A stretch of DNA of 35,320 bases. It comes from Mycobacteriales bacterium. GTDB taxonomy: Bacteria > Actinomycetota > Actinomycetes > JAFAQI01. Below, one piece after another: positions 26,482 through 34,894 of the stretch (positions within the stretch are counted from its first letter, which is position 1; each line of letters starts with the position of its first letter). The notes under the pieces are model-generated. The model was not told the origin of the DNA, ran no database searches, and saw nothing but the letters and a program-made list of their open reading frames with translations. The stretch lies in NCBI GenBank assembly GCA_035550055.1, contig DASZRO010000008.1:1-35320 (forward strand). The letters run 5' to 3'. The position numbers were made by a program, and so were the translations under genes.

Positions 26482-27135
26482 TTGAGTGCTCCGCCATTTG
26501 ATCTTGCCGAAACCGACCGTTTGCTCTCGACGACGCGCGCGGTCCGCAAACGCCTCGACCTGGAGCGTCCGGTCGAACGTGAGGTGATCCTGGACTGCCT
26601 GCGGCTCGCCGTACAGGCACCGACGCAGAGCAACTCGCAGACCTGGCGCTGGATGGTCGTCACCGAGTCGGAGAAGAAGGTCGTGATCGCCGACGCCTAC
26701 CGCAAGGTGGGCATGCGATACCTCGAGATGGCGGCCGGGTCGGAGAAGGATCCGCAGACGCAACGCGTCTACGAGAGCGCGGTGTCACTCGCGAAGCTGC
26801 TCGAGCAGGTCCCCGCGATGGTCATCCCATGCGTCAAGAAGGACTTCGACCCGTCGCACGGCAACGCGGTCGCCGCGAGCGTCTACGGCTCGATCATCCC
26901 CGCGACGTGGAGCTTTCAGCTCGCGCTGCGCTCACGCGGCCTCGGCTCGGTGTTCACGACGCTGCACCTGTTCCAGGACGCAGTCGTCGCCGAGGCGCTC
27001 GGCATCCCGGACGACATCCTGCAGATCGCGCTGCTGCCTGTGGCGTACACCATCGGGACCGAGTTCAAGCCCGCCGAGCGACCGCCGGTCGAGGACATCA
27101 CCTACTGGAACCTTTGGGGCGAAACCGGTTTGTGA
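26482..27135 (+). CDS. nitroreductase family protein (FMN-dependent)
   Basis: A 217-residue flavoprotein. TTRAVRKRLD (about 17-26, with Arg19) is the phosphate-binding start of the fold, and QAPTQSNSQTWRWMVV is the FMN-contacting segment. SVYGSIIPATWSFQLALRSRGLGSVF is the long dimer helix, and GIPDDILQIALLPVAY is the conserved strand near the end. Substrates of such enzymes range from quinones and nitro compounds to flavin destruction and enone reduction. The reading frame offers a TTG at 26482 as start, with GGGG about ten bases upstream; no ATG or GTG gives the conserved N-terminus. It is divergent from the amidohydrolase and followed by an SRPBCC gene 55 bases later. An inverted repeat begins at its stop codon. 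Confidence 0.88.
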   Translation: MSAPPFDLAETDRLLSTTRAVRKRLDLERPVEREVILDCLRLAVQAPTQSNSQTWRWMVVTESEKKVVIADAYRKVGMRYLEMAAGSEKDPQTQRVYESAVSLAKLLEQVPAMVIPCVKKDFDPSHGNAVAASVYGSIIPATWSFQLALRSRGLGSVFTTLHLFQDAVVAEALGIPDDILQIALLPVAYTIGTEFKPAERPPVEDITYWNLWGETGL

Positions 27136-27174
27136 ACCGCTAGGGACAGCCGGCTGTACGCAGCAGTTCACAAA
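27129..27174. repeat. inverted repeat TTTGTGAAC/GTTCACAAA with an inner palindrome
   Basis: Perfect 9-bp arms (27129-27137 and 27166-27174) enclose 28 bases. The loop holds a perfect 12-bp palindrome, ACAGCC-GGCTGT (27146-27157). The left arm overlaps the nitroreductase stop codon and the right arm lies 16 bases before the SRPBCC start. It may be two operator half-sites, an mRNA cruciform that protects or separates the two messages, or a weak attenuator. No T-run follows, so a plain rho-independent terminator is unlikely. Confidence 0.6.
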
Positions 27175-27190
27175 TCGCGGAGGGGCACGG

Positions 27191-33170: not shown

Positions 33171-33227
33171 TGATCTTGACGAAAAAGGCGCTATGACCGC
33201 CTCATAGCGCCTTTTTCGTCAAGATCA
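33171..33227. terminator. bidirectional terminator-like hairpin with perfect 26-bp arms
   Basis: A perfect inverted repeat: 26-base arms at 33171-33196 and 33202-33227 with a 5-base loop (CCGCC). The inner part GGCGCTATGA/TCATAGCGCC is flanked by AAAAA on the left and TTTTT on the right, so in either direction a GC stem is followed by a U-run. It sits between the convergent PaaK-like ligase and the DUF35-thiolase gene, as a shared terminator should. The arms continue beyond the T-run (TGATCTTGACG and its complement), which is longer than termination requires. Confidence 0.85.
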
Positions 33228-33232
33228 GCGCG

Positions 33233-34894
33233 TTACGTCGTGAGCAGGAAGGCTCCTCCGGGTACGCCGCCGCCGATGCCGCAGACCGCGACCTGGACGT
33301 CGTCGACCTGACGTTCGCCGGCGTGGCCGCGCAACTGCGTGACCGCCTCGTGCACGAAGCCGAAGCCATGCGTCCGACCGGCCGAGAGCTGGCCGCCGTG
33401 CGGGTTGATCGGCAGCTCTCCGTCGAGCGCGATCCGCTTGCCGCCCGCGACGAAGTCCTTTGCTTCTCCCAGACCGCAGAAGCCAAGGCCTTCCAGCCAG
33501 GCGACGGTGTTGAAGCTGAACCCATCGTAGAGCAGCGCGACGTCGACGTCCTCGCGGCTGACCGAGGCGCGGCTCCAGAGGTGACCGGCCGGTCCCCAGG
33601 CGTTGGGCAAGTGGGTCATCGTGCCCTGGTCCCAGGACTGCCGCTCGGTGATCTGGGTGCCCGCAGCGTCGACGAAGACCGGCGCCTGCCGGAGGTCCTT
33701 AGCGGTCTCCCGTGCCGACACGATGACGGCGACCGATCCGTCGCACGGCACATCGCAGTCGTAGAGCCCGAGCGGCGTCGAGATCATCCGCGCGGACAGG
33801 TAGTCGTCCATCGTCATCGGGTCGCGGTAGATGGCGAGCGGGTTGAGCCCGGCATTGCGCCGGTTGTTCATGGCGATCCAGCCGAGCATCTCGCGGTCGG
33901 CGCCGAACTTCGCGAAGTACTGCGAGGCCTGCATCGCGATCCAGTTGCCGGCGCTCGCCGCGCCGTACGGGATGCGCCACTGGAAGTCACCGCCCACCGC
34001 ACCACCGCGCGGCAGCGGGAGGCCGCCAGTGCGCAACAGCTCGGTGTGCGTCGCCTCCCAGACCGTCCGGAAGCAGAGCACGTGGCGGCACAGGCCGTTG
34101 GCGACGGCGAGCATCGCGTTGACGATCGCGCCGGTCTGCGCCGACTGCTCCAGCCCGCCGTTGTGCCACGTCGGATGGATGCCGAGGGCTTCCTCGAGGA
34201 CGGGTACGCCGCCCTCGCTGATCCCGCCGCCACCCGGCATCCCGCCGGGCCACGTCGCGAGACCGTCGATGTCGTCGAGCGTCAGCCCGGCGTCGGCCAC
34301 GGCTGCCTTCGCGGCCTCGACCGTGAGCGAGATCGGTGGCCGCATCAGCCGGCGACCGACCTGCGACATGCCGATGCCGGTGATCGCGACCTTGTGCTCG
34401 TAGCGGTCGGTCGACACCGGCGGCCGCGTCACGACGACCGGCGGTGGCACCAGATCGGCGACCGGCGCATCCGGTTCGTCGAGCGGTTCGAACAGCGGGA
34501 ACCAGATGCCCTCCTGCTCCAGGAAGCGCACCTTGACCCGCTGGCCGACCCGGATCTCGTCCTCGCCGACGCCGACCAGATTGGTGGTCAGCCGGACGTG
34601 CGGTGCCTCGTCGATGATCACGACCGCGATCACGTACGGCGGGTTGAAGCTCGGCATGAACATCTGGTGGTTCATGGTCACGCCGACGACCGTCGCCTTG
34701 CCACTGACGGGCGTCCAGGTCAGCTTCGACTCATGGCAGCGCGGGCACACGGTCTGCGACGGGTGCAGATAGCCACCGTCGTTGTCGCACTTCGGCAGCC
34801 GCAGCTCGCCGACCTCACCGCCGGTCCAGAAGGGTGAGTTCCAGGGACCGAGCTCCGGCTTCGGCCGATGCGCCTCGAGAACCGTCTCCGTCAT
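33233..34894 (-). CDS. DUF35 OB-fold/zinc-ribbon domain fused to SCPx/Ltp-type thiolase-like domain
   Basis: A 553-residue fusion. Residues 1-150 are a DUF35 (ChsH2-type) domain: a zinc-ribbon remnant with Cys36, Cys50 and Cys53 (the expected fourth Cys is Asp39), then an OB-fold ([22 protein letters not shown]). After a Pro-rich linker (about 145-165), residues 166-553 are a thiolase fold of the non-specific lipid-transfer/SCPx type, with [21 protein letters not shown] (His499) and VCGIGGG (Cys538). The usual nucleophilic Cys is missing; Ser251 (LEQSAQTGA) lies there, so it should not be an ordinary thiolase. In steroid catabolism Ltp2 acts as a retro-aldolase together with the separate DUF35 domain of ChsH2; this gene joins both. 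The ATG at 34894 overlaps the aldehyde dehydrogenase stop. Confidence 0.88.

Follow-up and report, generated by a model that had tools for sequence, protein, structure and literature searches.

A perfect intergenic hairpin belongs to a dispersed palindrome family that brackets AbiEi-like/Vsr-type nuclease genes in Actinomycetota

The window (the whole 35,320-nt stretch of DNA analysed here) carries two convergent genes separated by 68 bp, with a perfect hairpin between them (Table 1). The 463-aa product of the plus-strand gene returned no Pfam family at E 1e-4 and is presumably an acyl/aryl-CoA ligase, judging by eye. The hairpin starts 6 bp past the stop of this gene and ends 5 bp short of the end of the convergent gene. 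Its 26-nt arms (33171–33196 and 33202–33227) are 100 % complementary around a 5-nt loop, making it the top-scoring of the 23 inverted repeats listed in the window; the longest perfect arm in the window is 26, vs 8–11 across 20 local shuffles. Folding of the plus-strand RNA gave −46.9 kcal/mol against a shuffle mean of −16.3 (z −11.3), and the other strand gave −47.4 kcal/mol (z −9.9). Rfam returned three matches, each far under its gathering score.

Table 1. Features of the palindromic element and its flanking genes in the window
Feature	Position	Strand	Basis
57-bp palindromic element, 26-bp perfect arms, 5-base loop	33171..33227	.	Inverted-repeat listing, folds, genome copies
Left box TGATCTTGACG, kept across copies and genomes	33171..33181	+	Genome/relative searches, alignment
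Right box, same 11-mer on the minus strand	33217..33227	-	Genome/relative searches, alignment
Variable core (15-bp stem arms and loop 33197-33201), differs from all other copies compared	33182..33216	.	Copy comparison
U-run past the inner stem GGCGCTATGA/TCATAGCGCC, possible terminator tail	33212..33216	+	Sequence
U-run (AAAAA on the plus strand), possible terminator tail, opposite direction	33182..33186	-	Sequence
Upstream gene of the convergent pair, 463 aa	31773..33164	+	ORF; Pfam
Convergent gene, 553 aa, ChsH2-type OB-fold and thiolase-like C-terminal domain	33233..34894	-	ORF; Pfam

A preliminary description of this DNA had read from its letters a hairpin with perfect 26-bp arms and a loop of 5, a U-run on either side of a central stem and arms that reach 11 bases beyond the stem a terminator would need, the whole being AT-richer than its surroundings. 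The inverted-repeat listing bears out the perfect arms, and the other details hold as well: the U-runs come after an inner 10-bp stem, the arms continue for exactly 11 bp past them, and the G+C content is 27/57, vs 0.61–0.77 in non-overlapping neighbouring 57-bp blocks. As described below, those outer 11 bp are the portion that is conserved elsewhere.

Several other observations were made around this site. A second, imperfect palindrome lies at 27126–27177 (26-bp arms, 81 %) and did not match any of the nuclease-flanking boxes with which it was compared. The closest named relative (L020, thiolase 88 % identical) has a different downstream gene and no box in the stretch compared, and is therefore uninformative as to insertion at the window site. 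Long perfect hairpins of unrelated sequence also lie near thiolase homologues in other Actinomycetota (L025, L030, L098 and others). One contig from a metagenome-assembled genome labelled Bifidobacterium breve (L023) encodes a thiolase 62 % identical to that of the window and is probably mislabelled.

The preliminary description had suggested a REP-like dispersed palindrome or a site bound by a protein, to be checked by searching the genome and its relatives, and had allowed for an ordinary terminator should the hairpin prove unique with only its central stem conserved. That search supports the first proposal: there are 18 copies in the genome of the window (G000) and more in related genomes, and it is the outer 11 bp that is conserved while the central stem varies. 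The 3.5-Mb genome contains 39 occurrences of the 11-mer box TGATCTTGACG (reversed control, 0). Defining a copy as two facing boxes exactly 35 bases apart with at most 3 mismatches over 22 positions, we counted 18 copies of the 57-bp palindrome, 15 of them without mismatch (control, 0). A variable-gap search (gap 20–50) returned 17 matches, all of them 57-bp copies having exact inner 10-mers, so that no other length exists within that range of gaps in G000, and no facing boxes were found at gaps of 5–34. At least two of the lone boxes appear by eye to be truncated half-elements (L162, L176).

The family extends beyond this genome, with the proviso that the genomes compared are largely draft assemblies. 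The one other genome of the genus that was compared has 10 copies with the same box and length and a different core. The palindrome is carried by 5/12 genomes of the family, 5/13 of the order and 10/393 of the class sample, three of these ten belonging to a single other family. The box is the same in all of them, and the paired cores are species-specific; G005 has 15–18 copies. Most copies read were 57, 58 or 68 bp long. A single viral contig was odd in that it has the palindrome pattern with a core that by eye is not palindromic. Gene context was read for 67 copies using crude gene calls: they lie outside genes, at a median distance of 14 bp from a gene 3′ end, with 23 between convergent genes, 34 between co-directional genes, 8 between divergent genes and 2 at contig ends.

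One gene in the genome of the window is itself placed between two copies of the palindrome (G000:C43:43301-44182), lying between hisG and infC (Pfam HisG and IF-3). Homologues of this gene were found in 13/13 genomes of the order; in G000, G001, G006 and G010, a gene for a protein of ~290–340 aa is bracketed by two copies, and that of G010 is at a different location from that of G000. Pfam assigns AbiEi and DUF559/MTES_1575 domains to the bracketed proteins, and PADLOC returns AbiEi. In an AlphaFold model (pLDDT 94), residues 4–188 resemble AbiEi (6y8q, Z 12.7, rmsd 5.9, 176 residues aligned; 1zel, Z 9.5), while residues 193–294 resemble the homing endonuclease I-Bth0305I (3r3p, Z 12.6, rmsd 2.2, 93 residues aligned), with further matches of this half to 3hrl (Z 12.2) and Vsr (1cw0, Z 10.4, residues about 191–294). 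On its matches to 3r3p and 1cw0, the model has the EDxHD/Vsr catalytic fold. In an alignment of 52 homologues, E196 and G243 never vary, and conservation is 90 % or more at D229, E240 and R256. As modelled, the protein is a nuclease of two domains, a predicted AbiEi-like DNA-binding part and a Vsr/I-Bth0305I-like endonuclease part corresponding to DUF559.

In G000, palindrome pairs also enclose an adenylate-cyclase-like gene and a helicase-like gene (the latter by eye). Further pairs lie around HTH/DUF397-like genes in G179 (L229, L230; names by eye). We considered a cassette in which palindrome pairs carry cargo genes and rejected it, as the enclosed genes vary in G000 and G179; only the nuclease recurs across genomes. 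Separately, a dispersed palindrome at L162:1838-1894 (G000 C18) bears the box found at L252, the locus of another nuclease of the same genome, so that at least two such families coexist in G000.

To gauge how regular the bracketing is, we took 92 nuclease loci, of which 77 were complete (220 aa or more, with 250 bp of sequence to either side); for seven loci, the coordinates came from the search match instead of the HMM row. A matched palindrome pair was present at 34/77 loci and missing from 43/77. By group, there were pairs at 28/54 loci of the order, 3/6 of the plasmid-collection records and 3/17 from other families (14/17 without), and a few of the counted pairs are weak (L304, L296, L280). 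The same test applied to control genes gave 0/101 away from elements and 4/205 overall, those four lying beside known copies; the control set holds some genes twice on account of overlapping loci (e.g. L180/L195).

The flanking palindrome is alike on both sides of a nuclease and usually differs per nuclease lineage (GTTGAGTGCGACG in G003, G004 and G006; CGGTGATCATGAC in G001). On the tree, nucleases related to each other tend to have the same box, and box similarity correlates weakly with protein similarity (rho 0.21; 1/1000 permutations was as high). In G006 (L215/L240), the TGATCTTGACG box surrounds a nuclease of a distant clade, with 26 % identity to that of G000; the palindromes at these loci are 68 bp long, exceeding 57 bp by roughly a helical turn. 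Similar neighbours were present for 5 of 22 pairs of related nucleases, and the other 17 had none on the sides open to comparison. The homologue in G005 is split over two reading frames, has no palindromes and is nearest to a type with another box.

If palindrome and nuclease belong together, a bracketed homologue is to be expected in distant genomes that have dispersed copies. We looked at five genomes of this kind and, for contrast, at seven others. The expectation held for G179, a genome of another family that has 13 copies: its best homologue lies between palindromes whose core is that of the dispersed copies in the same genome; G240, G032, G045 and G125 carry the palindrome pattern, and no bracketed homologue was found in them. 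All three components (a nuclease, a palindrome pair around it and dispersed copies) recur in two further organisms, where the boxes are of unrelated sequence. Tsukamurella tyrosinosolvens has a DUF559 gene (WP_170181047.1) between two 64-bp palindromes, and this palindrome occurs at 20 places in 8 records (a palindrome may count on both strands), with 6/7 of the copies read lying between convergent genes. Arthrobacter sp. StoSoilB13 has a bracketed nuclease with 57-bp palindromes, present at 13 places in 2 records. Among 72,556 records, neither palindrome was in those of any other organism, and L279-type and L294-type nucleases had no match in the plasmid records. Some of the Tsukamurella ‘plasmids’ (NZ_LR134453-NZ_LR134468) carry ftsH, purB and similar genes and look like pieces of chromosome, and the Nonomuraea ‘plasmid I’ (NZ_LT559118) is 11.85 Mb long.

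The way in which the copies change is informative. We aligned 56 copies, each 57 bp long, from five genomes: the columns of the box hardly vary, and those of the core differ between genomes, with both arms changing in step. Pairing is retained in 88.7 % of cells, and 265 cells changed on both sides vs 109.7 when shuffled, a measure that is inflated by relatedness and that falls to 45–91 when the partner is shifted by 1–3 columns. Judged from these sequence patterns, base pairing of the palindrome appears to be under selection. Five loci have a copy in G000 as well as in G001; at these, the boxes are 95–100 % identical and the core stems 51 %, beside coding DNA that is 79–87 % identical (three loci measured). 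Inside a genome, core stem identity is 86 % (G000) or 66 % (G001), and the nearest core is in the same genome for 55/56 copies; thus, copies in one genome change together. The exception is the window copy, which seems to have escaped homogenization: its core matches no other copy and has as its sole likeness the loop CCGCCTCAT, common to the hisG-side copy of the nuclease locus. At two further loci, the palindrome is occupied in one sister species and empty in the other; neither comparison revealed a target-site duplication or a clean empty site, the alignments being too diverged to show the ends.

These data establish a dispersed family with a constant box and a species-specific, self-complementary core, copies of which bracket a nuclease gene, in a layout repeated in many relatives. 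Our favoured reading, which we hold to be probable, is that the window hairpin is a dispersed non-autonomous copy of the nuclease-bracketing palindrome, generated in a nuclease-driven selfish cycle reminiscent of homing elements and REPtrons. The broader proposal, to which we give slightly better than even chances, is that Actinomycetota harbour a class of selfish elements in which a Vsr/homing-type endonuclease with a fused AbiEi-like DNA-binding domain acts on the palindrome particular to its lineage, by copying or converting it; the many DUF559 genes would be the engines and the gene-end hairpins their footprints.

In such a cycle, the AbiEi-like half would bind both boxes of the palindrome, with one monomer per arm, as AbiEi biology suggests. 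AbiEi reportedly binds pairs of 23-bp inverted repeats that are 3 or 13 bp apart (PMC7319586), a paired-repeat layout near that of these palindromes in size. The Vsr/I-Bth0305I-like half would then cut or nick at the palindrome, and repair from another copy, or copying, would spread and homogenize the palindromes. We infer such copying or gene conversion from the presence/absence of copies and from their concerted evolution. Copies would persist at gene 3′ ends, where they might be nearly harmless and could provide stop codons or terminators.

Alternatively, the palindromes could be immobile binding sites of the AbiEi-like protein, serving as an operator pair at its own gene and as a fixed gene-end regulon elsewhere, with the protein acting as a regulator or as a termination or nucleoid factor. 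AbiEi proteins autoregulate through promoter inverted repeats (PMC7319586), and both the 14-bp median distance to gene 3′ ends and the five sites common to two species would suit this explanation. Against it, the second palindrome of each pair is downstream of the nuclease gene, the nuclease residues E196, D229, E240 and R256 are conserved, sites have been gained or lost between sister species at two loci, the cores turn over in concert and most of the compared nuclease relatives are at unrelated loci. We therefore regard a fixed regulon as unlikely.

More doubtful still is the notion that another transposase spreads the palindromes and that nuclease genes are just frequent neighbours of them. 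Transposition by the nuclease is something that we infer, and the 43 homologues without a pair leave room for another agent. However, the two palindromes of a pair match and have a box that is usually specific to that lineage of nuclease, none of the 101 control genes lying away from elements had a pair, and organism-specific dispersed copies share the box that brackets the local nuclease. In the loci that were read, we came across no transposase gene with this palindrome on its two sides.

It is very improbable that the hairpin is solely a bidirectional intrinsic terminator between convergent genes, even though it is strong, sits between tightly convergent genes and has a stem followed by a U-run on each strand. 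The outer arm of a terminator needs no sequence identity, yet the 11-bp box is common to 18 copies and many genomes; on account of this conserved outer box, we rejected a plain terminator as the single origin. The bidirectional terminator of the preliminary description is plausible for the window copy, the 15-bp core of which has a U-run per strand after the inner stem, and does not carry over to the other aligned copies, which by eye lack U-runs. From its sequence, the window copy may therefore double as a bidirectional terminator, a role plausible for this copy alone.

Membership of a known REP/RAYT or CGTC-REP family, with which the palindromes share a like architecture and gene-end habitat (PMC2817692, PMC3733652), is scarcely credible given the lack of an unpaired GTAG/CGTC tag, a length of 57 bp rather than 20–40 bp and an enzyme of a different fold.

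Should nuclease-driven copying be proven, the palindrome/nuclease system would deserve a class of its own, and the REP/RAYT lifestyle would, if our reading is true, have arisen a second time with an unrelated enzyme. Nuclease/recognition-box pairs from many lineages would then also be useful for studying the evolution of new DNA specificities. The system offers a testable function for DUF559/MTES_1575-type proteins, so far annotated only as domain-containing proteins, and accounts for a set of unusually perfect gene-end hairpins in Actinomycetota; since all copies in a genome change in concert, the idea that a site-specific nuclease drives gene conversion is open to direct test. The open-licence PMC literature yielded no account linking DUF559 or AbiEi nucleases to palindromes; of the 14 papers there that mention DUF559, none has palindromes as a subject in its title or the opening of its abstract.

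Each half of the protein has a known counterpart. The catalytic domain has the fold of Vsr-like (EDxHD) homing endonucleases such as I-Bth0305I (3r3p, Z 12.6); unlike that type, the nuclease was not seen in an intron, is fused to an AbiEi-like domain and has cognate palindromes on both sides as well as in dispersed copies. The N-terminal two-domain fold is that of AbiEi from the AbiE type IV toxin–antitoxin system (6y8q, 1zel; PADLOC AbiEi models). Unlike AbiE, the protein carries a fused nuclease domain, and the G000 C43 gene has no DUF1814 toxin gene beside it, its neighbours being hisG and infC.

CGTC-tagged REPs (Di Nocera et al. 2013, PMC3733652) are likewise short dispersed palindromes without an attached HUH transposase; they have 8–9-bp stems and an unpaired CGTC end, whereas here CGTC is part of the 26-bp stem. 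The PMC3733652 text contains none of the words Actinobacteria, Frankia and Streptomyces. The closest likeness is to REP/RAYT systems (REPtrons; Nunvar et al. 2010), for which PMC2817692 describes a gene between two palindrome copies, dispersed genomic copies, co-variation of enzyme lineage and palindrome, species-specific sequences and location at gene 3′ ends. The palindrome copies here share with them a position outside genes, mostly downstream (n=67). REPs are 20–40 bp long with an unpaired GTAG at one end and number in the hundreds, whereas the palindromes here are 57–68 bp long and number in the tens, and the 57-bp window copy has the same paired box TGATCTTGACG at both ends. The REP/RAYT enzyme is an HUH tyrosine transposase; here, it is an AbiEi-like protein with a DUF559/Vsr-fold nuclease. 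By analogy, the system is best read as REP/RAYT-like, with a Vsr-type nuclease probably standing in place of the HUH transposase; it would work in the manner of REP/RAYT, with a new enzyme.
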